A DNA stretch of 64,000 nucleotides from Halorussus ruber (GTDB lineage: Archaea > Halobacteriota > Halobacteria > Halobacteriales > Haladaptataceae): contig NZ_SBIT01000006.1 of the NCBI RefSeq assembly GCF_004765785.1, forward strand, positions 1 to 64,000. The letters run 5' to 3'. Of the stretch, positions 8,936 to 52,345 are shown in pieces. The stretch's first letter is position 1. Every line of letters starts with the position of its first letter. Made by a program: the position numbers and the translations under genes. The notes under the pieces were generated by a model that was not told the origin of the DNA, did not search any database, and saw nothing but the letters and a program-made list of their open reading frames with translations.

Positions 8936-9150
8936 ATTTTCTAAAGCAATCTAAGTATTGTTAAGGATTGAGAAATCCACCGTGGCGCGCGCTGGCGCGA
9001 CGCGTTCATGCGTCGCGCCTTTCCGCGCGAGGGATGAGTAGCACAGGAGCGTAGCGACGAGCAACGCAATCGGTTGGGGAGGGTGTGGCCCGCGGTTGCG
9101 GGGCGGTGCGGTTGCGGTGACGCCTAGGCTTCGGCAATAGCTAGCTACTC
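8936..9150 (+). repeat. Dispersed GCTAGCTA repeat, copy 2 (forward)
   Basis: An AT-rich flank with CTAAAGCAAT (8941-8950) leads to a perfect hairpin (GGCGCGACGC at 8994-9003 with GCGTCGCGCC at 9010-9019, loop of six), then GAGGGATGAGTAGC, a block matching copy 1, GGTTGGGGAGGG near 9074, GCGGTGCGGTTGCGG, and the end CCTAGGCTTCGG followed by AATAGCTAGCTACT (about 9124-9149). No ORF of haloarchaeal character crosses it. Confidence 0.8.
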
Positions 9151-17940: not shown

Positions 17941-18001
17941 GTCCCTCCCTCTCGGCATGCTGGCCGATGCGGCACATTCGCGCGCCGCACCGGCCGATTT
18001 C

Positions 18002-18043
18002 GTTTACGTAAACGAAAACGCAAACGTCAGCGAAAACGCAAAT
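18002..18043. repeat. Hexamer array b
   Basis: Seven hexamers in register: GTTTAC, GTAAAC, GAAAAC, GCAAAC, GTCAGC, GAAAAC, GCAAAT. The first two form the perfect palindrome CGTTTACGTAAACG at 18001-18014. It lies 136 bases before the MCM-like gene. Confidence 0.8.
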
Positions 18044-18178
18044 GTCGGAGAACGCTCAAACGGTCCGAAAATGGATGTAAAATCGCAGTCCGGCGGCCGA
18101 ACCGCAGGACGACGCTAACCATCTCGGACGCCCGACAGGAGGCGTGTAACAAAGATTGGTGCGAGAGAAGGGTGGTCC

Positions 18179-20496: not shown

Positions 20497-20556
20497 GATT
20501 GCGTTTACGATTCCGTTTGCGTTTTCGTTTTCGAATTTGTTTACGCATTCGTTTCC
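20497..20556. repeat. Hexamer array c
   Basis: Ten G....C hexamers in register, mostly of the GTTTNC form: GATTGC, GTTTAC, GATTCC, GTTTGC, GTTTTC, GTTTTC, GAATTT, GTTTAC, GCATTC, GTTTCC. First of three arrays in the 457-base gap between the hypothetical gene and the ParA partner. Confidence 0.8.
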
Positions 20557-24330: not shown

Positions 24331-27183
24331 ATGGACTGGCACGCCGAATCCCCCAGCGAGGTCTACGACGCCCTCGACACCGACGAGGAGGGACTGTCCG
24401 AGGACGAGGCAAAGCGCCGCTACGAGGAGTACGGCCCGAACGAGATTCGCGGCGAGCGGGAGATTTCGGCGCTCGCGCTGTTCGTCTCGCAGTTCCGCAA
24501 CTGGTTGACCTACCTGCTGGTGGTGGCGGCGCTCCTCTCGCTCGCCGTCGGATTCCTGCCGGGCCAGACCCCGGAGTACGCCGAGGCCGCGCTCATCTTC
24601 GCCATCCTGCTGGCCAACGGCCTGTTCGGCTTCGCGCAGGACTACCGGACCGAGCAGTCGGTTCAGGCGCTCCGGTCGCTCTCGACGCCAGACGCGACGG
24701 TCCTGCGCGACGGCGAGAAGCGGACGGTAGACGCCACCGAGGTCGTGCCCGGCGACGTGTTCTTCGCGGCACAGGGCGACGTGATTCCGGCCGACGGCCG
24801 ACTGATTCAGGCCGAGAGTCTGGAGACCGACGAGTCGGCGCTGACCGGCGAGAGCGCGAGCGCCTCGAAATCGGTCGAGGCGGTAGACCCGGACGCGCCC
24901 CCGGCAGACCGCGAGGGGATGGTCTTCATGAACACCTACGCCGTGGCTGGCCGGGGCGCGGCAGTCGCGGTGGCGACCGGGATGGAGACCGAGGTCGGAG
25001 CCATCGCCGAGCAACTCGGCACGACCGAGGAGCCGCCGACCCCGTTTCAGGAGGAGGTGGACGCGCTCGGCAGGCGAATCGCCGGGCTGACGCTCGGCAT
25101 CATCGCGTTCGTCGCGGTGGTCCAGCTGCTGTTCACGGGCGCGTCTCCGATTTCGGTCCTCCTCATCGCGGTGACGCTGGCGGTGGCCGCGGTGCCCGAG
25201 GGGTTGCCCGCCGTGGTCACGCTGACGCTGGCGCTGGGGTCGCGGCGACTCCTCCGGAAGGACGCGCTGGTCCGACGACTCCCCGTGGTCGAGAGCCTCG
25301 GCGCGGTGGACGTCATCGTCACCGACAAGACCGGGACGCTGACCGAGAACGAGATGACGGTCCGGCGGGCCTACGCCGGGGGCGAGAGCCACAGCCTCCC
25401 GCTCGGGGAGCGCGAGCAGGAGCGCCCGGAAGCGAGAAGCGACGAGACGGGACGAGAAGGAGACAGCCAAGCCCCGACGCAGGCCCGGACCGACGGGTCG
25501 CCGAACGTCGACCGCTCGGTCGCGCCCGAACTCGTCGCTCTCCTCCGGACCGGCGCGATTTGCAACGACGCCGAGCCCGCCGGGGAGGAGTCCCGCGGTG
25601 ACCCGAGTGAGGTCGAGTATCGCGGCGACCCCACCGAAGTCGCACTCGTCCGGGCCGCCGACGACGCCGGGGTGAGTTGGCACCGAGAGCGCTTGCGCGA
25701 GATTCCCTTTTCGGCCGAGCGAAAGCGCATGACGGTCGTGGCCGAAGGGAGCGCGGACGGCATCGTTAGCGTAAACGAAAACGCAAACGTAAGCGCAAAC
25801 GAAAATGGAAGCGAAGTCGAAAGCGGAAACGCAAATACACCCACGGCCTACCTCAAGGGCGCGCCCGAGGTGGTGCTGGAGCGGTGCGACTCGATACTGG
25901 AGGACGGCGAGGCGACCCGGCTGACCGACGAGCGCCGGGCCGAGATACTCGACGTGAACGACGAGTTCGCTGGCGACGCCCTCCGGGTGCTGGGGTTCGC
26001 GCGCCGGGTCGGCGTGGACCCGGACGCCCCCGACGAGGAGTTGGAGACCGGCCTGACCTTCGTCGGCCTCCTCGGGCTGATGGACCCGCCCAGACCCGAG
26101 GTCGCCGACGCGGTGGCCGACTGCCGGAAGGCCGGGATTCGAACCGTGATGGCGACCGGCGACAACGTCGAGACCGCGAAGGCAATCGGCGCGGAGTTGG
26201 GCTTCGACCCCGAGGGCGCGCTGACCGGGCCGGAAGTCGAGGCGTTGGACGAGGGCGAACTGGCCGAGCGCGTCGAGGAGGTGGAGGTGTTCGCGCGAGT
26301 CTCGCCGACCCACAAAGTCGAGATTCTACAGGCGTTGCAGGACAACGGCCACACCGTGGCGATGACCGGCGACGGGGTGAACGACGCCCCCGCCCTGAAG
26401 CGCGCCGACGTGGGCGTGGCGATGGGCCAGCGCGGAACCGACGTGGCCCGGACCGCCTCCGACGTGGTGCTTCGGGACGACAACTTCGCCACGATTCGGG
26501 ACGCGGTCGCGGAGGGCCGCGGGGTCTTCGACAACGTCCGGAAGTTCGTCAACTACCTGCTGTCGGCCAACGCGGGCGAGGTGCTGGTGGTGTTCGTCGG
26601 CGCGCTCGTCGGGGCCGCGTTCTTCCCCGAGACGTTCGCCGGAACCGAGGAGGCCGTCGTCCTCACGCCGGTCATGCTCCTGTGGGTGAATCTGGTGACC
26701 GACGGCCTCCCGGCGCTCGCGCTCGGGGCCGACCCCAAGTCCGAGAACGTGCTGGAGCGCCCGCCCAGGGACGCCGACGAGCGCGTGGTGAACCGCCGAG
26801 TGATGGTCTCGGTCGGGGCCATCGGCGTCCTGATGACGCTGACGGGACTCGCGCTGTTCTTCTACGGGGTGGCCGAAGCGACCCTCGTCGTCGCCCAGTC
26901 GGTGCTGTTCACCTTCCTCGTGGCCATCGAGATGGTCCGGATTCAGTTCATCCGGTCGCGCTACGACCTCTCGGTCCTCTCGAACCGGTGGCTGTTGGCC
27001 GCCATCGCGGTGACGCTCGCGCTCCAGTTGACGATTCTCTACACGCCGATTCGGACCGCCTTCGGCGTGGTCGCGCTCGGCGCGACCGAGTGGTCGTGGA
27101 TAGCCGCCGGGTTCGCGGCGTTCGTCCTCCTCGCGCTGGGGGTCCGGGCGACGCTGGGCCGGATGTTCGGGGCGGAAGCGTAG
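24331..27183 (+). CDS. P2-type cation-transporting ATPase (Ca2+ or Na+ type)
   Basis: A 950-residue membrane pump. An N-terminal cation-ATPase domain (about 1-70) leads to the actuator loop ALTGESAS (about residue 170), helix M4 VPEGLPAVVTLTLALGS, the phosphorylation site DKTGTLT (Asp332), the nucleotide-binding KGAPEVVLERC, TGDNVETAKAIG and [11 protein letters not shown], and a C-terminal membrane domain. The motifs place it in the P2A/P2D group; Ca2+ export is likely and Na+ possible. Residues about 479-502 (Asn/Glu/Ser-rich) are encoded by hexamer array i and look like an insertion in the N-domain. Confidence 0.93.
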   Translation: MDWHAESPSEVYDALDTDEEGLSEDEAKRRYEEYGPNEIRGEREISALALFVSQFRNWLTYLLVVAALLSLAVGFLPGQTPEYAEAALIFAILLANGLFGFAQDYRTEQSVQALRSLSTPDATVLRDGEKRTVDATEVVPGDVFFAAQGDVIPADGRLIQAESLETDESALTGESASASKSVEAVDPDAPPADREGMVFMNTYAVAGRGAAVAVATGMETEVGAIAEQLGTTEEPPTPFQEEVDALGRRIAGLTLGIIAFVAVVQLLFTGASPISVLLIAVTLAVAAVPEGLPAVVTLTLALGSRRLLRKDALVRRLPVVESLGAVDVIVTDKTGTLTENEMTVRRAYAGGESHSLPLGEREQERPEARSDETGREGDSQAPTQARTDGSPNVDRSVAPELVALLRTGAICNDAEPAGEESRGDPSEVEYRGDPTEVALVRAADDAGVSWHRERLREIPFSAERKRMTVVAEGSADGIVSVNENANVSANENGSEVESGNANTPTAYLKGAPEVVLERCDSILEDGEATRLTDERRAEILDVNDEFAGDALRVLGFARRVGVDPDAPDEELETGLTFVGLLGLMDPPRPEVADAVADCRKAGIRTVMATGDNVETAKAIGAELGFDPEGALTGPEVEALDEGELAERVEEVEVFARVSPTHKVEILQALQDNGHTVAMTGDGVNDAPALKRADVGVAMGQRGTDVARTASDVVLRDDNFATIRDAVAEGRGVFDNVRKFVNYLLSANAGEVLVVFVGALVGAAFFPETFAGTEEAVVLTPVMLLWVNLVTDGLPALALGADPKSENVLERPPRDADERVVNRRVMVSVGAIGVLMTLTGLALFFYGVAEATLVVAQSVLFTFLVAIEMVRIQFIRSRYDLSVLSNRWLLAAIAVTLALQLTILYTPIRTAFGVVALGATEWSWIAAGFAAFVLLALGVRATLGRMFGAEA
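25765..25836. repeat. Hexamer array i, inside the cation ATPase gene
   Basis: Twelve hexamers in register (GTTAGC, GTAAAC, GAAAAC, GCAAAC, GTAAGC, GCAAAC, GAAAAT, GGAAGC, GAAGTC, GAAAGC, GGAAAC, GCAAAT) encode VSVNENANVSANENGSEVES and GNAN. The frame is kept through the array and the conserved KGAPE motif resumes a few codons later. Confidence 0.8.
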
Positions 27184-42674: not shown

Positions 42675-44510
42675 TCAGTCGTCGGCGCTGGCTTCGGGCG
42701 ACCAGTCGTCGAGGGTGCGCTGGACCGCCTCCTCGCCGACCGCGCGGGCCAGCGTCTCGAAACCGGCGCGCTCGGCGCGCTCGTCGGCACCGGCCAGCAG
42801 GCGCGAGACGATGAACTCGGGGGTGGACTTGCCGACCGTGCCGAACCGCGGCTGGTAGTCCACTTCGAGTTCGAGATTTTCGTCCAGCCCCTCGGCGAAG
42901 ATGCCGTCCTTGCGGGCCTTCTCGGGCAGGGGCTTGAGGTCGTCGGCGAGGTGGGTGACGAAGACGCCGAGCGCGCCCCGGTCCACCGTGAGTCTGACGA
43001 GTCCGTGGAGGAGGTCCGCGGCGCTTCCGGGTTCCGTAATCGCCTCGAACTCGTCGACCAGCATCAGGGTGTCCGACCCCTCGGTCAGGGGCGGGACGAT
43101 GCTCCGGAGGGTCGATTCCAGCACGCCAGCGTTGAAACTCGCGTGGCGGCGGTGGAAGACGATGTCCTCGGAGATGGAGACCTCGGCGCGCTCGGCGGGG
43201 ACCGGCAGACCCATCTGAGCCAGCAGGGCGACCTGACAGAGCGTTTCGAGCAGGGTCGTCTTACCGCCGGAGTTCGCGCCGGTCAGGACCGAGACGCGGT
43301 CGCCGCTCGGCGGGGTGGGGTCGGCGGGCGGAGTTTGGTCGTCCAGCGCGGAGTCGCCAGATGCCGAATCCGGCGATTCCGCGCCGGATTCGGCGGCGTC
43401 GGGCAACTCGTGGTCGCCTACGGCGTAGGTGACCGGCTGAACCGCCTCGTCTCCGGCCTCGATGGAGACGTTTCGGGCGTTCCGGACCGCGAAGCCGTTC
43501 TCGCGGAACGAGGGCCGGGTCAGGTCGAACGCGGCGGCGAATCGGGCCAGCGAGAGGTTAAAGGCGAGGTCCGAGACCTCCTCGCCCGCGGCGTCGATGG
43601 CGTCCCGGTTCTCGGCGATGCGACCCCGGAGTCGCCGGGCGACCGACCGCTCGCGCTCCTCTGCCGACTCGCGGAGGTCGGCCCGGAGTTCCCGGAGCGT
43701 GGCGTTCACGAAGTCGGTGGCGTCCACCGCGTCGTCCGGCGTGGCCTCCCGCACCCGCTGGAACCCGGCGTCGGTCTCGCTGGCGACGTAGTCCACCACG
43801 ACCTCGCCGAACTCGGCCCCGGCGCGGGCCTCCTCGCGTATCTCCTCCATCGCGTCGAGGGAGTCGCTGGCGAGCGACTTCACGCCGTCGAGGGCGTCGC
43901 GCAGCGAGTCGAGTTCGTCGTCCACGCCGCGGGCCACGTCGCCGCCGTCCAAGTCCGCGAGCGCCGACGCCGCGGCTTCGAGGTCGTCGCGGTCGATTTC
44001 GGCGGCGCTGGCGAACGCGCCGTCGGAGAGTCCGGCGTCCCGGAGCGCGAGGACGGTCCGGACTGCGGCCTCGTCGTCGCCGATGCGGTCGTTCTCGGCG
44101 TACTCGGCGAACGCCGAGAGGACGGCCTCGCGGGTCTCGCCGTCGAGGCGCTTCCACGACTCGGTGGCGTCCATCACCGAATCGAGGCGCTGTTCGGCCT
44201 CCTCGCGCTCCATCAGCGGCGTCAGCACCCGGATGCGGTCGGCCGCGTCCTCGGTCACGGCGTAGTCGCTGGCCGTGTCCAGCAGTTCCTTGTACACCGC
44301 GCGGGTGTCGCGGGTCGAGAGGACCGCCATGCCCTCGCCGCCGTTGGCCCGCCGGAGGATTCGGGTCGCGCGCCCCCGGGACAGCCCCGAGGAGACGAGC
44401 GCCCGGACCTCGCCGGACTCGATGGCTTCGACCGCCCGCTCTGTGCCCAACTCGGCTTCGAGGCGCTCGCGCGTCTTGGGTCCGACCCCCCAGTACTCCT
44501 CCAATCGCAT
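42675..44510 (-). CDS. MutS-family ATPase with N-terminal HhH domain
   Basis: A 611-residue protein. MRLEEYWGVGPKTRERLEAE starts a helix-hairpin-helix DNA-binding segment. A helical lever region follows (about 90-350). The MutS ATPase has Walker A TGANSGGKTTLLET, Walker B LMLVDEFEAIT and GVFVTHLADDL. There is no mismatch-recognition domain and no C-terminal Smr nuclease, so it is closest to archaeal MutS-related proteins of unclear role, such as recombination or DNA-structure binding. The ATG at 44510 was chosen; upstream sequence is AT-rich repeat flank. Confidence 0.88.
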   Translation of the reverse strand: MRLEEYWGVGPKTRERLEAELGTERAVEAIESGEVRALVSSGLSRGRATRILRRANGGEGMAVLSTRDTRAVYKELLDTASDYAVTEDAADRIRVLTPLMEREEAEQRLDSVMDATESWKRLDGETREAVLSAFAEYAENDRIGDDEAAVRTVLALRDAGLSDGAFASAAEIDRDDLEAAASALADLDGGDVARGVDDELDSLRDALDGVKSLASDSLDAMEEIREEARAGAEFGEVVVDYVASETDAGFQRVREATPDDAVDATDFVNATLRELRADLRESAEERERSVARRLRGRIAENRDAIDAAGEEVSDLAFNLSLARFAAAFDLTRPSFRENGFAVRNARNVSIEAGDEAVQPVTYAVGDHELPDAAESGAESPDSASGDSALDDQTPPADPTPPSGDRVSVLTGANSGGKTTLLETLCQVALLAQMGLPVPAERAEVSISEDIVFHRRHASFNAGVLESTLRSIVPPLTEGSDTLMLVDEFEAITEPGSAADLLHGLVRLTVDRGALGVFVTHLADDLKPLPEKARKDGIFAEGLDENLELEVDYQPRFGTVGKSTPEFIVSRLLAGADERAERAGFETLARAVGEEAVQRTLDDWSPEASADD

Positions 44511-44559
44511 ATCTGAGACGTGCGCCCCACGGCTCTTAAGGGTTGCAGAAGCGTTGTCA

Positions 44560-44955
44560 GACAACTATTTATTTGGTTACTACAATAGAATATTTCTCAA
44601 GCAATTGATTTTAATTCTCATCTCCCGGTCACGGTCGGCGCGCGGGAGCGGCTGAGCGAAGTCTTCGGGAAGGAAGTGACCGAAGGCTCGGAAGACGCGG
44701 TTTGTCTTCCGGTGCGAAGGAGCGACTCGCGCGAGGTCTCGCTGAGCGTAGTCGTTCGAAAATCTCCGATTTTCGTGATCACGAGAGCGTTGCTCTCGGA
44801 CGACGAAGCGAGGCTCGATGGACGCGGTTTGTCCGTCGGTGGAGTCGGCCGCCGGAGGCGGCCGACGAGGTTGGGGAGGTGTGAGGTTCGCGGCAGCGGT
44901 GCGGTTGCGTGGCGGGGCGGGAACGCCTCGGCTTCGGCAGTAGCTAGCTACTTCC
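44560..44955 (+). repeat. Dispersed GCTAGCTA repeat, copy 5 (forward)
   Basis: The AT-rich flank includes TCAAGCAATT (44597-44606). The body is a chain of hairpins. One block, 44731-44817, has CGAAAATC/GATTTTCG, then GTGATCAC, then GAGAGC/GCTCTC. Further hairpins, including GTCGGCCGCC/GGCGGCCGAC near 44855, precede GAGGTTGGGGAGG (44867-44881), GCGGTGCGGTTGCG and the end CTTCGGCAGTAGCTAGCTACT. It pairs in inverted orientation with copy 6. Confidence 0.82.
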
Positions 44956-45016
44956 TCCAATCCACCTCGATTTCGGTCGGCCGACACGACACTCGCGCGC
45001 TGAAAATCAGTATCTC

Positions 45017-45025
45017 TCTTATAAC
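45017..45025 (+). promoter_or_regulatory. TATA-like element for the VTT gene
   Basis: CTTATAACT would place the transcript start near 45047, between the GTG codons at 45036/45039 and the GTG at 45078. This favours the later start. Confidence 0.4.
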
Positions 45026-45077
45026 TCTGCGTGGTGTGGTGAACACACTAAAGTCGCTTCATCCCCCGTATCCGGTA

Positions 45078-45779
45078 GTGAGGCTATTCTCTTCGGCGGA
45101 GGCTCGGCGGCGGAGCGTTATACTTCTGGTCGCCGCGGCGGCGGCGCTGGTCGCGGTGTACGCGGGCCTCCGCCGCTACGCTCCGTTCGTCTTCCACCCC
45201 GAAGAACTCCGAACGTGGGTCGAGGGATTCGGCGTTCTCGCTCCGGTCGTCTTCACGCTCCTCCAGACGGCGCAGGTCGTCGTCGCCCCGATTCCGGGGC
45301 AAGGCGTCGCGCTCGTCGCTGGCTACCTGTTCGGCCCGGTTCTCGGAACCGTCTACAGTCTCGTCGGCGTACTCCTCGGGAGCGCAATCGCGTTCACGCT
45401 GGCGGACCGATACGGCCGAGATTTCGTCGAGGAGATACTCGACGAGGCGGCAATCGACCGGTTCGACGGATTCGTCGACCGAGTCGGGATTCCGGGTCTG
45501 GTCGCGCTCGTCGCCGTCCCCGGCCTACCGGACGACGTGATCTGTTTTCTCGCCGGAATCACGAACTGGCGGCTCCGGACGTTCATGGTCGCCATCACGA
45601 TTGGTCGGCTTCCGGCCTACGTGCTCACCGTCTACGCCGGTGGCAAACTAGCCAGCGGACGCTTCGTCAGCGCGATGGCGATCCTCGGAGTCGTGATAGG
45701 AATCTCCGCGGTCGGCTACTACAAACAGGAGGAGATCAGGGACGTAGTGCAACGGTTCGCGGAACGCTCCCCGTTCTAG
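45078..45779 (+). CDS. VTT-domain (TVP38/DedA-like) membrane protein
   Basis: A 233-residue membrane protein of the SNARE-associated/VTT group. VVVAPIPGQGVALVAGYLFG, then GTVYSLVGVLLGSAIAFTLADRYGRD, is the core re-entrant signature. AIDRFDGFVDRVGIPGLVALVAVPGLPDDVICFLAG follows as in TVP38. These proteins act as lipid scramblases or transporters in other organisms. GTG 45078 gives a start just before the first helix; GTG 45036 or 45039 are alternatives. The gene lies between two inverted repeat copies. Confidence 0.87.
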   Translation: MRLFSSAEARRRSVILLVAAAAALVAVYAGLRRYAPFVFHPEELRTWVEGFGVLAPVVFTLLQTAQVVVAPIPGQGVALVAGYLFGPVLGTVYSLVGVLLGSAIAFTLADRYGRDFVEEILDEAAIDRFDGFVDRVGIPGLVALVAVPGLPDDVICFLAGITNWRLRTFMVAITIGRLPAYVLTVYAGGKLASGRFVSAMAILGVVIGISAVGYYKQEEIRDVVQRFAERSPF

Positions 45780-45809
45780 GGCCGAGAACCGGCAGCGAGG
45801 CGCTCTCGC

Positions 45810-48800
45810 CTACTCGTCCAAGAACGCCGAGAGCAACTTCCGCTCGCTCACCCGGAGGTGCTGGTGGAAAGTCGGCGCAGAGACGCCGAGTGACTCGCTG
45901 ACCTCCTCGCCGGTACTCTCGCGGGGCCACTCGAAGAATCCGGCGTAGTAGGCCGCGTCGAGGGCCGACCGCTGGCGCTCGGTCAGGTCCTCTTCGAGCG
46001 TCGCGCGGAACTCCTCGACGGTGCGCTCGGGGCGCTCGCGCTCCCGGCGGGCGACGACCTTCGTGCCCGGAATCGAGTCCTGAATCGACTCGACGGCCGA
46101 ACGCACGTCCACGTTCCGGGGGAGTTCGACCACGCTCCGGCCACCGTCGGCGGTGAACTTGGCGTCCCGGAGCGTCCCGCCGTGGTTGGCCAGTTCTTCG
46201 AGCGGCGAGGGACCGGTGTAGACGAACTCGAAGAGGTTGCCGTCGTCGTGTTCGTTGACGAGGCGGGCCTGCGCCACGTCGTCGGCCTGCTCGGCGCGCT
46301 CCAGCACCCGGTCGGGGGCGAGACCCTCCACCGTCATGAAGTAGACGAACGACCCCTCGGAGGTCATGGTCACGCCGTCGAGCGCGAACACGCCGCCCTC
46401 CTCGCGGGGGACGCGGGCGAAGAAGCCCTCGCCGTCGCGTATCTCGAACTCGACTTCGACCACGGCGTCCGACAGCAGCGCCTTCTTGCTCTCGGCGGCG
46501 TTGATGGCGTGGCCGATGGTCTCGCCGAGTTCGGCCAGCACCGCCTGCTCGCGGTCGTCGAAGGCGTTGGCCCGGTCGGCGTAGACGCAGAGGACGCCGT
46601 AGACCGTCTCCCGATAGCGCAGGGGGATGGCGGCCGCCGAGCGATAGCCGCGTTCGAGGGCCTGCTCTCGCCACGGCGCGAAGCCGTCGTCCTCGGGGAC
46701 GTTCTGGACGACCTGCACCTCGGCGGTTTCGAGGGCCGTCTGGGCCGGGCCGCGAGGAGTCTCGTCGCGCATCTCGGTAATCGTTTCGAGGTAGCCCTCC
46801 TCGACGCCCGCGAAGGCGGTCGGTTCGGCCTGATTCGACCCCGTCATCGCCTCGCCGGTCCACGCGAACCGGTAGTGGTCGGAGTCGGCGAGTCGGTCGC
46901 AGACCGCCTGCTCCATCTCCTCGCGGGTCGAGGCCCGGACCAGCAGTTGGTCCACGTCGCGGATGACCTCGTTGATGCGGTCGAGTTCGGCGAGCTGGCT
47001 CCGCTGGTCGGCGAGTTCGGCCTCGCGGGCCGCCCGGTTGAGCGCGACCTCGGCGTTGGCCGCCAGCACGCGGACGAGGTCCATCTCGTAGTCGTCGAAC
47101 GCCTCGGGGTTCGCGGAGGCCACGGTCACCACGCCCCAGTCGCCCAGCGGGAACGCGCCGAACGACCGGATTCCGGGCGACCCGTCGTCGAGCGCCCGCG
47201 GGTCGTTCCACGCGTTGTCGAAGAACTCGCTCTCGCCGGACTCGAAGACGCTCCCGACGATGCCCTCGCCGAGGTCGAAGGTCGGGGCGTCGCCGATGCT
47301 GGTGACGGTGTCTTCGGGCAGGATGTAGGGTTCGAGGAGGTCCGCGTCGTCGTCCCACCGGAAGACGGTCGCGTGAGGAATGTCGAGGACGTTCCGGGCC
47401 GTCTCGACCACGGTCTCGCAAATCTCGGACTGGCGCTCGGCCGCCATCAGGTTGCGGGTCGCCCGGTGGAGCGAGTCGAGCATCTCCTCGCGCTGGACGC
47501 GCTCGGTCACGTCGTAGTAGAGTTCCACCCGACCGCCAGCGTAGAGTCCCGACTCGATGGGCCGACTCCGGTGCTGGAGGTAGCGCTCGTCGCGGCCGTC
47601 GCCCGGCGTGACGTGGCAGGTGAACTCCTCGACGGAGGTGTTGTCGTCGTAGGTCGCGGTCACGATGTCCCCGAATCGGTCGCCGTCCTCGACGGTGTCG
47701 CGGATGTCCGTCTCGATGAGTCGGCGCTTGTCGGCCCCGACGATGGCGTCTCGCTCGACGCCGAAGTACTCCCCGACCGCGGAGTTCGCCCACGCCACGT
47801 CGAACTCGTCGTCCAAGACGAAGATGCCGACGTCGGTGTTGTCAAGCACGTCCTCGGTCATCGAGCGGTGGCGCTCCTCGTTTCGCTTGCGCTCGGTGAT
47901 GTCGGTGTAGATGACGTAGTTGCCGTCGTCGCCCGACACCTCGGCGTTCCTGAGGAGGAAGTCCCGAACGCCGTCGGCGGCCGTCCGCTTGACCTCCGCG
48001 TCGACGCGCTCGCCCTGCCCGACCCGCTCGTTGAGTCGCACCGCCTCGTCCTGCTGGTCGTCGGGGACCAGCAAGTCGTCGATGGACTCGCCGCGCGCCT
48101 CGGGTTCGCTGTAGCCGAACGTCACCTCGAAGGCCTCGTTGACCGACTCGATGATTGGCTCGCCGTCCCGGAGTTCGTATCGCGCGGTCGGCTCGGGAAC
48201 GTTCTCGAACAGCGCGGCGAACCGGTCTCGCTCCTCGCGGAGCGCCGACTCCGAGCGGACCCGCTGGAGCGCCTCGGAGGCGTGGGAGACCAGCAGTTCC
48301 GCGAGCTTCGCGTCCTCGTCGTCGAACTCGCCGACCGCGCGCGACCCGGCCTGCAAGATGCCCTCGTCGCCGAGCGGAACGCTCAGGAAGGACTTGAGGT
48401 CGTCGTTGATGCGCCGTCCCGTGTCGGACTGACGGATGTCCTCGACGACGTAGGTCTCCCCGCGTCGGTAAGTTCTGCCCGCGAGGCCCTCGTCGGCGCG
48501 GAGGATTTCGTAGTCGTCCTCGTCGAACTCGGAGGTAGCGGCCTTCGGCACGAGGAAGCCGCCCTCCTCGATGGCAACGCCGCAGATGTCGAACTGGAGA
48601 ATCTCCTCGGCGGCCGCGACGGTCTCGTCGTATATCGCTTCGGCCGTGTCCGACCCTTCGAGGTTGACCGCGACGTGGTGAAGTTCCTCGAACTTCCGGT
48701 TAGCGCGCTCTAGGTCGCGCTCCAACTGCTTGCGGTCGGTGATGTCGGTGTAGATGGCGTAGCCGCCCGCCCGCTCGCCGGAGACGCCCGCGGTCCGCAA

Positions 48801-50342
48801 CAGGAAGTCCCGCATCCCGTCGGCCCCTTTCCGGCGAACTTCGGTGTTGAGGTGGTCGTCGTCCTCCGTCCGGTCGAGGTGGCGCTCGAACTCGCCCTGT
48901 TCGTCAGGGGGCACGATGAGTTCGTCTATCGGTCGGCCGACGGCCTCGCCCGCGTCGTAGCCGAACACCTCCTCGAAGGCCTCGTTGACCGAGTGGACAA
49001 CGGGCCGACCGTCGCGCATCCCGTAGTCCACGATTGGTTCGGGGACGTTCTCGAACAGCGCGGCGAATCGGTCGCGCTCGGCCTGTAGCGCGCTCTCGGA
49101 GCGAATGCGCTGGAGCGACTGGGCGACGTGCGAGGAGAGCAGTTCCGCGAGTTCGCAGTCGCTCTCCTCGAACGCTCCGGCTTCCTTCGAGACGGCCTGA
49201 AAGACGCCGATGTCGCCGATGGGGACCGTCAACGCCGCCCGGTAGCCGCTGGCGGCCGGGTCCACGCCCTCGTCGTGGAGGTTGCGCGTCCGAATCGACT
49301 CGCCCTCGCGGTAGGCGCGGGCCGCGAGGTTGTCCTCGGTCGAGACCGGCGTCGTGGTGTAGTAGCCGTCTGTCGGGATGCCCTTCGAGACGGCCCGCGG
49401 GACGAGTTCGCCGTCCTCGACGGTATCCACCGCGCAGAGGTCGAACTCCAGCAACTGCTCTGCGGTCTCGACCGCGAGGCGACAGACCTCCTCGGCGGTC
49501 TCGCACTCTTCGAGCATGACCGCGACCTCGTGGAGTTCCTTGGTCTTTCGCTTCTCGGCTTCGAGACGGTCTTCGAGTCGCTTGCGACGGCTCACGTCGC
49601 GCACGATGGCCGAGAAGTAGTGTTGGTCGTCGCGGACGGTCTCGCGGAAGGAGATTGCGAGCGGAATCTCCCTGCCGTCGCTGTGCCTGCCCGGCAGTTC
49701 CACGTAGTCGCGCTCGACCTGTCCCTCGTCGTCGCGGAGTTCGTTCACGGTCGCCCGGAAGCACTCGTGGACCGACTCGTCCAGCAGTCCCAAGACCGAC
49801 TCGCCGACGACGTCCGCGGGTTCAAGCCCGAAGACGCGCTCGATGGCGTCGTTGGCGAACACGACCTCACAGTCGTCGTCGATGGTCAGAATCGGGTCCG
49901 GCGACTCCTCGACCAGCGTCTCGATTCCGTCGCCGAGTTGGTCGCGGTCTCGCTCGGCGCGAACGCACTCGACTGTGCTCTCGACGCGCCGCGCCGCGCG
50001 GGCAGAAAGCCCGGACTCCGGTTCGGTCGAGACGAACGTCACGTTCGCGGGCACGTCGCCGACCGACTCGGCCAGCATGACGCGGGCGACTCCGGGGTAG
50101 AGTTCGCCGACCGCGCCCAGAAACTCGGGGCCGCCGACGTCGAGGAGGTCCGCCTCGGCGACCACGCAGTCGATGTCGCCGGTCTCGATGCGGTCGAGTG
50201 CGGTCGCCCCCCGCGACTCGCACCGGACCTCGGCGTCGGTCAACTCCTCGGCGATTGCCTTCGCGCGCGACCCATTCCCGACGTAGACGACCCGTAAGGC
50301 GTCTCCTCGCGCTCGGTTCCCGTCACCCTCCGGCTTAAGCAT
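45810..50342 (-). CDS. Giant PAS/GAF sensor with Bat-type HTH output
   Basis: A 1510-residue cytoplasmic one-component sensor-regulator. Residues 1-125 form a receiver-like domain. Alternating PAS and GAF domains follow: PAS about 140-265, GAF 275-415, PAS 420-545, GAF 550-685, PAS 690-810, PAS 820-940, GAF 950-1090, GAF 1100-1250. A Bat-associated domain (about 1265-1420) and an HTH_10 (about 1450-1510, TERQRSALDAAYYAGFFEWP) end the protein. A GAF-PAS unit is duplicated (ERDRFAALFENVPEP occurs twice). The ligands and targets are unknown. It converges on the VTT gene. Confidence 0.92.
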   Translation of the reverse strand: MLKPEGDGNRARGDALRVVYVGNGSRAKAIAEELTDAEVRCESRGATALDRIETGDIDCVVAEADLLDVGGPEFLGAVGELYPGVARVMLAESVGDVPANVTFVSTEPESGLSARAARRVESTVECVRAERDRDQLGDGIETLVEESPDPILTIDDDCEVVFANDAIERVFGLEPADVVGESVLGLLDESVHECFRATVNELRDDEGQVERDYVELPGRHSDGREIPLAISFRETVRDDQHYFSAIVRDVSRRKRLEDRLEAEKRKTKELHEVAVMLEECETAEEVCRLAVETAEQLLEFDLCAVDTVEDGELVPRAVSKGIPTDGYYTTTPVSTEDNLAARAYREGESIRTRNLHDEGVDPAASGYRAALTVPIGDIGVFQAVSKEAGAFEESDCELAELLSSHVAQSLQRIRSESALQAERDRFAALFENVPEPIVDYGMRDGRPVVHSVNEAFEEVFGYDAGEAVGRPIDELIVPPDEQGEFERHLDRTEDDDHLNTEVRRKGADGMRDFLLRTAGVSGERAGGYAIYTDITDRKQLERDLERANRKFEELHHVAVNLEGSDTAEAIYDETVAAAEEILQFDICGVAIEEGGFLVPKAATSEFDEDDYEILRADEGLAGRTYRRGETYVVEDIRQSDTGRRINDDLKSFLSVPLGDEGILQAGSRAVGEFDDEDAKLAELLVSHASEALQRVRSESALREERDRFAALFENVPEPTARYELRDGEPIIESVNEAFEVTFGYSEPEARGESIDDLLVPDDQQDEAVRLNERVGQGERVDAEVKRTAADGVRDFLLRNAEVSGDDGNYVIYTDITERKRNEERHRSMTEDVLDNTDVGIFVLDDEFDVAWANSAVGEYFGVERDAIVGADKRRLIETDIRDTVEDGDRFGDIVTATYDDNTSVEEFTCHVTPGDGRDERYLQHRSRPIESGLYAGGRVELYYDVTERVQREEMLDSLHRATRNLMAAERQSEICETVVETARNVLDIPHATVFRWDDDADLLEPYILPEDTVTSIGDAPTFDLGEGIVGSVFESGESEFFDNAWNDPRALDDGSPGIRSFGAFPLGDWGVVTVASANPEAFDDYEMDLVRVLAANAEVALNRAAREAELADQRSQLAELDRINEVIRDVDQLLVRASTREEMEQAVCDRLADSDHYRFAWTGEAMTGSNQAEPTAFAGVEEGYLETITEMRDETPRGPAQTALETAEVQVVQNVPEDDGFAPWREQALERGYRSAAAIPLRYRETVYGVLCVYADRANAFDDREQAVLAELGETIGHAINAAESKKALLSDAVVEVEFEIRDGEGFFARVPREEGGVFALDGVTMTSEGSFVYFMTVEGLAPDRVLERAEQADDVAQARLVNEHDDGNLFEFVYTGPSPLEELANHGGTLRDAKFTADGGRSVVELPRNVDVRSAVESIQDSIPGTKVVARRERERPERTVEEFRATLEEDLTERQRSALDAAYYAGFFEWPRESTGEEVSESLGVSAPTFHQHLRVSERKLLSAFLDE

Positions 50343-50483
50343 CGTCCCACGACAGACACTCCGTGGTTGTTAGCGTTTCGGCTTTCTCGATAGTTGAGAT
50401 GTTTTTTGGGCTTCGTGGCGGGGTTGAGTCAGGGTGGAGAAGGGATTGTTGTGCCAGCCACAGCGACAGCGAAAGTGAGTAGA

Positions 50484-50792
50484 AGCTAGCTACTGCCGAA
50501 GCCTAGGGCCCCCCGCCCCCGCCCCCCCCCGCGCCTCGTCCCCCCCACCCTCGCCGGCCGCCCCGGGCGCCCGACTCCACCGTCAGAGGCAAGCTCTGAC
50601 GAGCCTCGCTTCGTCGTCCGAGAGCAACGCTCTCGTGATCACGAAAATTTCCGATTTTCGAACGACTACGCTCAGCGAGACCTCGCGCGCGAGGAGCGGC
50701 GCGAGAGCGCCGCTCCCGCACGCGCCAGAAAGACAGATTTTCCTATAGTAAGAAATTAAAATTGTCCTCTAAACAATTGAAAAGGAGTCTAA
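50484..50792 (-). repeat. Dispersed GCTAGCTA repeat, copy 6 (reverse)
   Basis: On the minus strand it runs from an AT-rich flank (50745-50792) through hairpins and the 87-base block shared with copy 5 (50600-50686) to the end CCTAGGCTTCGG and AGTAGCTAGCTTC (50481-50505). A C-rich run (50508-50548) replaces the GGTTGGGGAGG side and could form a G-rich structure on the minus strand. The gap 50343-50796 otherwise contains nothing recognised. Confidence 0.8.
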
Positions 50793-50796
50793 AGAC

Positions 50797-51960
50797 TCAG
50801 AACGTGAATCCGTGCTTCGCGGTGACGTGGTGGGCTGCGGTCCCCCAGATGTAGTTCTCGCCGGGCCACCACGTCCGGGCGTTGTTGAACCCGCCGACGA
50901 GGACGCCCGCCTCGGGATTGTCGGGGTCCGGGTGGTAGTTGACCGACCCGCTGTCGCCGTCGCTGAAGCCCGACTGCTGGCCCCACTTGAGTTGGCCCTG
51001 CTTGCAGATGGCCCCGTAGGCGCAGGTGAAGCCGTCTACGGCCTGAATCTTCCCGGTCGTGTGGCCCGTCTTGACGCCGATCTTTTCGAGGCGCTCGCCC
51101 GCGGCCTTGAGGTCCGCGAGGCCGACCTTGGTGAACTGGCCGAGGACGCGGCCCGGCGACTCCTCGCGGATGCGAGCGAGCGGTTCGTAGCCGCCTTTCG
51201 GCCGGGCGCAGACCATGTCCGACTTGGGGTAGCCCGACCGGACCGTCCCGATTTCGGTCCGCCCGCCGTCGAGGAGATAGAGCGGTTTACCCTCGTTTCC
51301 GGTCCCGCCGAAGACGTGGTTCGCGGTGGCGAAGTACCGCGACCCGTCGGTCGGGTCGCGCATCGCCGGGGCGAGCGTGCCGTAGAGGTCGTCGCTGGCG
51401 ACCGCGACGCTCCCCGGCACGCCGTCGCCGCGGGTCGCCTTCGAGGAGTCGCCGTCGAGAAACTCGCCCACCTCTGCGGCCGACCCCGGACTCCGGTTCT
51501 GGCGCGCGTCGGTCGCCTCCACGCGCCGGACCTCGACCGGCGTCTGCTCGACGGTCTCGGGCACCTCGCCGCGGGCCTCCTCGGTCGTAATCTCGACGCG
51601 GATGGACGCGTTCCGGCCGCCGTACTCGCCCGGCGCGACCGCCGAACTCGCCACGTCCTCGCGCCCGATGACTTCGAGGTTCCGGTGGGCCGCCAGCGCC
51701 GACCGGAAGTCGTCGTACCAGTCTGCGGGCACCGTCTTGCGCCGCGGGCGAAGCTCGCCCGACTCCTCGTCGCGGGTCAGCCCGTACACCACCGGCACCT
51801 CGTCTCGACCCGCCGCCTGCACGTCGTCTGCGGAGAGAAGACTCGCCGAGAGCGCGCCGAACCCCAAACCTAACAGCGTGTTCACGAACCGCCGCCGTCC
51901 CATCGACCCCACCGATTCGTCGTGGACGGCGCTGGTCCGCGTGTCGTCGTGTTCCCCCAT
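50797..51960 (-). CDS. Tat-exported trypsin-like serine protease
   Basis: A 387-residue protein with Tat motif GRRRFVNTLLGLGFGALSAS (residues about 21-40). Residues about 180-387 contain a chymotrypsin-like fold: RYFATANHVFGG has the putative catalytic His, SDMVCARPKG a candidate Asp, and SGFSDGDSGSVNY the putative catalytic Ser in GDSGS. Residues about 60-180 may be a propeptide. It is presumably secreted. The ATG at 51960 was chosen over a longer frame to 52119; a promoter-like TTATTCTAAC lies about 65-75 bases upstream. Confidence 0.85.
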   Translation of the reverse strand: MGEHDDTRTSAVHDESVGSMGRRRFVNTLLGLGFGALSASLLSADDVQAAGRDEVPVVYGLTRDEESGELRPRRKTVPADWYDDFRSALAAHRNLEVIGREDVASSAVAPGEYGGRNASIRVEITTEEARGEVPETVEQTPVEVRRVEATDARQNRSPGSAAEVGEFLDGDSSKATRGDGVPGSVAVASDDLYGTLAPAMRDPTDGSRYFATANHVFGGTGNEGKPLYLLDGGRTEIGTVRSGYPKSDMVCARPKGGYEPLARIREESPGRVLGQFTKVGLADLKAAGERLEKIGVKTGHTTGKIQAVDGFTCAYGAICKQGQLKWGQQSGFSDGDSGSVNYHPDPDNPEAGVLVGGFNNARTWWPGENYIWGTAAHHVTAKHGFTF

Positions 51961-52009
51961 TTCCCCGACTACTGTACGCCGGACTGTCACTTGAAACTGC
52001 TTGTCCGCC

Positions 52010-52345
52010 AGCGGTTCGAGATAGTTAGAATAAGTCGAGACTCCGGATTGAGAAAAGTTAGCACGTGTCGAGCGCATCCGCGGCGGACCCACCGCGGATG
52101 CGCTCGGCCGACCAACCACCGGAAAGAGCTTTCTCAGTTACTCCACCGGAACGAGCCTGACCAACCACTCCACCGGAAAGAGCTTCGGCCAACCACTCCA
52201 CCGTGGGCGGGGTGAAGGGGCCGGGCGCTCGCGTTCACTTTAGTCGCTGGTCGGCCGCTATCCGACGCAACTACGTCCGTCGGATATGCCGGCCAGCGAC
52301 CGCGAGCGGCCGGGGGCTTCAGAAAACGTCCTCGCCGTAATCTCG
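52010..52345 (+). repeat. Dispersed GGGATGAAGGGGC element, copy 4, with tandem units and hairpins
   Basis: A 14-base-pair hairpin (GAGCGCATCCGCGG at 52070-52083 with CCGCGGATGCGCTC at 52092-52105) leads to three or four degenerate units of ACCAACCACTCCACCGGAAA followed by GAGCTT (52109-52200), then GTGGGCGGGGTGAAGGGGCC at 52202. A second large imperfect hairpin (TCGCTGGTCGGC...GCCGGCCAGCGA) and GGCCGGGGGCTTCAGAAAAC (52304-52325) follow. It fills the gap between the protease and the 86-residue protein. Confidence 0.7.

Follow-up and report, generated by a model that had tools for sequence, protein, structure and literature searches.

A class-wide family of short double-hairpin mobile elements in Halobacteria whose hairpin loops occur in both orientations

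Two inverted copies of an 87-nt block in the genome of Halorussus ruber belong to a family of short mobile double-hairpin elements that is spread across the class Halobacteria. Members of this family carry hairpin loops in either of two orientations between unchanged flanks, and members are inserted at exact positions in transposon genes. From our analyses we consider it probable that the loops of a mobile double-hairpin family flip through switching between the stem arms or recombination within the stem, and that the element spreads by a separate route. Within the literature covered by our search, largely the main texts of open-access articles, neither a family of this size and architecture nor its distribution over the class and its precise insertion in transposon genes seem to have been described.

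Two copies of the block in the window

The analysed stretch of DNA (hereafter the window) is 64,000 nt long. An earlier note had described in it a block of 87 bases present as two inverted copies. This block is real: both copies are 87 nt long, and copy 1 and the complement of copy 2 (Table 1) differ by exactly four mismatches, at 44765-44768 (TCCG versus GGAA), all of which lie within one loop. Outside the block the sequence of the two copies diverges (self-repeat I1: 90 nt, 96%). Copy 2 was matched by copy 1 at E = 9.2e-36 in a whole-genome search, and the arrangement CGAAAAT-N5-ATTTTCG was found twice in the window against 0.00 expected from shuffled windows. A chance origin of the pair is excluded.

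The note had placed the difference in a five-base loop that was nearly the reverse complement of its counterpart. Its location and the near-reverse-complement relation were borne out, but the true loop comprises three bases on an 8-bp stem. This stem, CGAAAATC/GATTTTCG, defines hairpin A, which has the loop TCC in copy 1 and, on the minus strand, the loop GGA in copy 2, where a G-to-A change additionally opens the closing C-G pair. Copy 2 is most simply read, relative to copy 1, as flipped with one substitution added. The loop of copy 1 was compared with those of the remaining complete copies of the same hairpin order and frame in the own genome (C5, C6, C7, C8, C13 and C14; hairpin A first, a CGAGAG-type hairpin second, frame GTCGTT...GACGAC), all of which have GGA, GAA or AAA loops. 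Since TCC is the minority orientation for first-position hairpin A in the family, copy 1 is presumably the flipped copy.

Table 1. Features of the two block copies and of the repeats around them (positions in the window).
Feature	Position	Strand	Evidence
Block copy 1; outer arms CTCGCT...AGCGAG and GTCGTT...GACGAC	44731..44817	+	87 nt, 4 mismatches, DNA fold
Double-hairpin element copy 1; core TCGTT...GACGA at 44752-44803	44751..44804	+	strict family pattern
Hairpin A copy 1, CGAAAATC-TCC-GATTTTCG; minority (putatively flipped) loop orientation	44757..44775	+	
Linker TGATCA, self-complementary, between the hairpins	44776..44781		
Hairpin B copy 1, CGAGAGC-GTT-GCTCTCG	44782..44798	+	
Block copy 2	50600..50686	-	
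Double-hairpin element copy 2	50613..50666	-	strict family pattern
Hairpin A copy 2, CGAAAAT-CGGAA-ATTTTCG; majority GGA orientation plus one G-to-A change	50642..50660	-	
Hairpin B copy 2, CGAGAGC-GTT-GCTCTCG on the minus strand	50619..50635	-	
Composite intergenic repeat around copy 1, carrying a GCTAGCTA segment; repeats I4, I5	44728..44952	+	
Composite intergenic repeat around copy 2	50481..50689	-	

Copy 1 is located between the start of a minus-strand ORF (42675-44564) and a plus-strand gene ending at 45779, and copy 2 between a minus-strand ORF (50797-52119) and the start of another (45810-50342). At both loci the flanking genes are conserved in genus-mates, in which this position lacks the element and the gene order differs, so that no clean empty site is available for the window copies. 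Loci of two genus-mates covered by the search (G147 and G162) are identical to loci recorded under Halorussus amylolyticus and H. litoreus. When folded as single-stranded DNA, copy 1 forms two hairpins borne on an outer stem. The plus-strand RNA around it also folds somewhat more stably than shuffled sequences (z -2.2), as might be expected if the block were a conserved structured RNA that tolerates differences in its loops. We regard this as very improbable, as the element is nearly symmetric on both strands and in many genera sits in protein-coding tnpA and in the end of tnpB. An Rfam search of the window and the region returned no family.

The two composite repeats in which the copies are embedded are 79% similar. 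A composite intergenic repeat with GCTAGCTA, which is a CTAG-bearing motif in organisms in which CTAG is scarce, is found at 9098-9149, 44898-44952 and 50481-50532 of the window and in dozens of copies genome-wide. Repeats of the AACGTAAACGAAAACGCAAACG type occur in both orientations at 17991-18063, 20499-20533 and 25754-25826. A hairpin with a 7-nt loop, GGAAGAC-AAACCGC-GTCTTCC, is present at 44690-44715 and at many other loci of the own genome; the orientation of this loop relative to the flanks looks constant in the inspected copies, which makes it a useful non-flipping control.

Architecture of the family and orientation of its loops

The element follows the plan GTCGTY - hairpin - TGATCA - hairpin - RACGAC and comprises about 54 bases. 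A strict search pattern, TCGTY-CGA..TCG-TGATCA-CGA..TCG-RACGA, in which pairing of the stems was not demanded, occurred 22 times in the own Halorussus genome (a 4.3-Mb draft, the copies of which were gathered by search) and was present in 76 of the 391 Halobacteria genomes that were sampled, representing 39 of 86 genera. Carriers include Haloarcula, Natrinema, Halorubrum, Haloquadratum, Halobacterium and Halovenus. A reversed control pattern gave zero matches among the listed genomes, and the strict pattern was absent from the listed genomes of other orders of the same phylum and from the scanned viral contigs. The intergenic repeats of the haloviruses HF1 and HF2 were considered and rejected as double-hairpin elements, as they are AT-rich promoter repeats of GATC-avoiding viruses (PMC7230728).

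In a set of 133 distinct elements the core measures 52-62 nt, mostly 54, 56 or 60 nt, and is preceded by G and followed by C in 116, these two bases normally belonging to the target. Both stems are closed in 112 of these elements and in about 90 of the 100 listed pattern matches. The stems are 7-11 bp long and have more than 20 different sequences, and the core ends TCGTY and RACGA pair over only 5-6 bp. Hairpin types occupy either position and are combined with different linkers, and kindred two-hairpin units with the linkers TGATGA, TCATCC and GGATCA use the same hairpins. Dozens of copies in both orientations can be found within one genome. The outer end pairs are nearly always T..G or T..A (C..A on the other strand), and a perfect C..G is nearly absent. 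Haloarcula rara also has many copies in one genome (L090, L096, L097, L106, L124, L146, L148, L149 and L161), with compensatory stem changes (GACGC/GCGTC versus GGCGC/GCGCC).

The earlier note had suggested that the hairpin itself was inverted, a reading that is supported by reverse-complement loop pairs in fixed contexts across copies of the family. The loops of further copies, which it had proposed to inspect, are not unrelated random sequences. Three-base loops account for 230 of the 266 loops in the distinct elements, and the four commonest, GAA (44), TTC (43), GGA (36) and TCC (32), make up two exact reverse-complement pairs; the evidence comes from assembled sequences, with one genome per species. 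In the first position, hairpin A mostly has GGA, GAA or AAA and in a minority of cases TCC or TTC, while in the second position this is reversed. Because loop orientation is biased by position, flipping either is not free or is too infrequent to randomise it.

A census of hairpin pairs with equal stem and flanks, covering about 1.2 Mb of collected DNA, yielded 166 identical, 87 exact reverse-complement and 127 pairs one base off the reverse complement for three-base loops. Among five-base loops, none of 63 pairs were reverse complements and 54 were identical, and among seven-base loops the corresponding numbers were none of 41 and 30. Within contexts defined by their flanks, 55 exact reverse-complement loop pairs were counted, compared to a mean of 15.8 and a maximum of 30 in 2000 column shuffles, figures that are indicative and not strict probabilities because the copies are related. 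Of the 34 hairpin contexts delimited in this way, 13 contained such a pair, and the flipped pairs also include AAA/TTT and GCA/TGC.

Two loop classes could also arise without inversion, if loops turned over independently and C(GNA)G DNA triloops were selected for their stability on either strand. GNA triloops form very stable DNA hairpins, and 169 of the 230 three-base loops (73%) are GNA or TNC, where 8/64 would be expected; such selection could contribute to the two classes. As the explanation of the loop pairs it is nevertheless unlikely. Turning GNA into TNC through point mutations takes two transversions via other loops, and neither the excess of exact reverse-complement pairs over the shuffle maximum nor flips such as AAA/TTT and GCA/TGC would be expected under this reading. 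It also predicts an independent middle base, whereas complementarity of the middle bases is higher within contexts than across them: GNA and TNC loops of the same context had complementary middle bases in 53 of 110 cases (41.8 expected, p about 0.002), an effect that is significant but modest.

Insertion into IS200/IS605 transposons

Comparison of flanks revealed that the homologous surroundings of elements in different genera are IS200/IS605 transposons. The host gene tnpA (132 codons; Pfam Y1_Tnp; solved relatives 2ec2 and 2xm3) contains a 54-nt core at one exact point, site 156, after codon 52 (EILS^LHIS) and directly before the HUH motif. Carriers of this insert include L162:6876-7325, L111, L105, L129, L193, L320 and L321; empty copies of tnpA are present in the own genome (L246) as well as in others. 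Presence and absence at this one site demonstrate the mobility of the element: an empty Haloarcula copy (L331) and a filled one (L111) are about 99% identical, being separated by 6 mismatches in 754 nt and by the exact presence or absence of 54 nt, with the junction CTGTCG^CTCC and no target duplication. On the tree of tnpA the insert has a dispersed distribution, and well-supported branches force at least 10-11 changes. A single ancient insertion into tnpA was rejected as a simple account, because the carriers are scattered and one of them is nearly identical to empty copies.

Two-hairpin inserts were also detected at other points of tnpA, namely one of 51 nt at site 65 (L365, L366, L368, L378 and L317), one of 45 nt at site 57 (L356 and L373) and another of 54 nt at site 207 (L183). 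In the 51-nt insert the loops flip between GGA and TCC, one stem change (in L378) is compensatory, and a TAG/CAG polymorphism is present. Near position 1500 of L194 an IS605 end hairpin carries the element within its loop (GGGGTCAAG^CCCC). In L098, L107 and L134 the joined flanks match a Cas12f1-like TNB domain, and the junction is located just downstream, at the 3' end of tnpB, which in transposons of the IS200/IS605 class encodes the scaffold of the guide RNA.

The coding sequence fixes the orientation in which the loops at site 156 are read. Hairpin 1 has the loops GGA (8), GAA (3), AGA (2), AAA (1) and GTA (1) and, in the other orientation, TCC (5) and TTC (1), in addition to one two-base loop, and for each hairpin the orientation changes at least five times on the tree. 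Some of these flips may predate insertion, because the carriers may stem from separate insertions.

The lengths of the inserts in tnpA (54, 51, 45 and 54 nt) are all divisible by three, and an in-frame TGA is found in roughly two thirds of the inserts at site 156, with GGA or CGA in some others. The dN/dS ratio is 0.074 downstream of the in-frame stop and 0.09 upstream of it, the low downstream value being no proof of function, because the insert can be recent and the constraint may predate it. The insert lengths, with few exceptions divisible by three, the four exact sites taken up by four different inserts and the downstream constraint are the reasons to consider that the inserts are tolerated, through RNA excision, ribosome bypassing similar to that of yeast mitochondrial byps, or programmed stop readthrough, which we nonetheless find doubtful. 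Selection against the in-frame TGA, to which the GGA and CGA variants might point, is not claimed here, as GGATCA linkers also occur elsewhere.

Origin of the flips and relation to known hairpin systems

We infer that flipping of the loops follows from the structure of the hairpins, each of them a near-perfect inverted repeat. The stem would form either in single-stranded DNA or in a cruciform, and a polymerase switching between its arms would copy the loop as the reverse complement while leaving the flanks untouched; the same switching would also keep both arms identical. Alternatively, recombination could take place between oppositely placed copies, with an exchange tract that ends in the stem. 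Neither route would need an inversion enzyme. The flipped pairs combine an exact reverse-complement spacer, identical inverted arms and fixed flanks, as expected of spacer inversion by template switching. Such a mechanism is already known in kind. Hairpin-associated small inversions in plastids are a long-known case, loop inversions have been reported for bacterial rRNA hairpins (PMC8794818), and in yeast the inversion of inverted-repeat spacers and the homogenisation of the arms have been attributed to template switching, including ttc/gaa triloop flips (PMC8604942). As in the family described here, the plastid and yeast inversions reverse the loop and leave the stem unchanged, and template switching has been proposed for them. 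Unlike these cases, the archaeal element is multicopy, and a single genome therefore offers many parallel flips for comparison. By analogy, a template switch or a conversion event across the stem palindrome is most likely sufficient.

A related possibility, which we hold to be rather unlikely, is that conversion or recombination between copies of opposite orientation exchanges the whole hairpin as a cassette and so turns the loop. Haloarchaea are polyploid and recombine readily, and both the numerous copies in opposite orientations within one genome and the exchangeability of hairpin types between positions and linkers are in favour of it. However, copies 1 and 2 differ only in the loop, so the tract must end inside the two 8-bp stems, and template switching needs fewer steps, although its intermolecular form cannot be separated from such an exchange by sequence alone. 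The two loop orientations would also be produced if loop inversion were a phase-variable switch operated by a dedicated site-specific recombinase. This is extremely improbable, since the copies lie in mixed contexts and the invertible segment of 3 bases, flanked by stems of 7-11 bp with many sequences, leaves no constant recombination site.

Apart from flipping by arm switching or recombination in the stem, the element would spread by a separate route that favours IS200/IS605 transposons (tnpA, tnpB and the end hairpin) and leads to exact sites without target duplication. REP/BIME sequences are likewise intergenic palindromes with two inverted hairpin units and a short linker. A REP/BIME model with a RAYT was rejected, as no Y1/RAYT gene of the own genome was found with a complete element beside it; a single hairpin A is present about 350 nt past one of the Y1 tnpA genes.

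The family most resembles the mitochondrial double-hairpin elements (DHEs) and the small mobile repeats (SMRs) of Haloquadratum. The DHEs of Allomyces and yeast GC clusters such as GC42 are likewise tens of bases long, built of hairpins and scattered as mobile copies, with conserved stems, variable loops and modules that merge and shuffle (PMC4478555; for the DHEs, as cited in PMC5910586). The resemblance is architectural only, consisting of two short hairpins, a length of tens of bases and mobility. In contrast to the mitochondrial DHEs, the elements described here reside in archaeal chromosomes and plasmids, prefer IS200/IS605 genes, are without flanking repeats of the AG/ACT type, and have documented flips of loop orientation. 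SMR-A, SMR-B and PATEs of Haloquadratum walsbyi are transposase-free and generate no target duplication; the preferred targets of SMR-A are IS605-type transposons and PATEs, in which it lies in near-terminal palindromes, and the mobilisation of the SMRs was called enigmatic (PMC3119063). Both groups thus have IS605-type transposons as a common target and lack target duplication, ours being found in tnpA, tnpB ends and the end hairpin. SMR-A measures about 110 bp and an SMR-B 80 bp, with prominent terminal inverted repeats, compared to two hairpins in a core of 52-62 nt. By these published descriptions the two groups differ in size and ends, and the elements described here may still correspond to an HqIRS family. 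Rickettsia palindromic elements are mobile palindromes inside protein genes, with lengths mostly divisible by three. Our elements are about half that size, consist of two hairpins and, in most tnpA inserts, have an in-frame stop.

With this family, archaea gain what was described mostly in mitochondria: tiny mobile elements built of two hairpins. It offers exact empty sites and a preferred host, the IS200/IS605 transposons, which are relatives of Cas12-type nucleases. Palindromic stems, together with loops whose orientation is given by the flanks, make every copy a record of hairpin inversions. Culturable and genetically tractable haloarchaea would thus allow direct measurement of how often and by what mechanism templates are switched. 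The tnpA inserts, many of them with an in-frame stop, allow bypassing or RNA-level removal in archaea to be put to the test in either direction.
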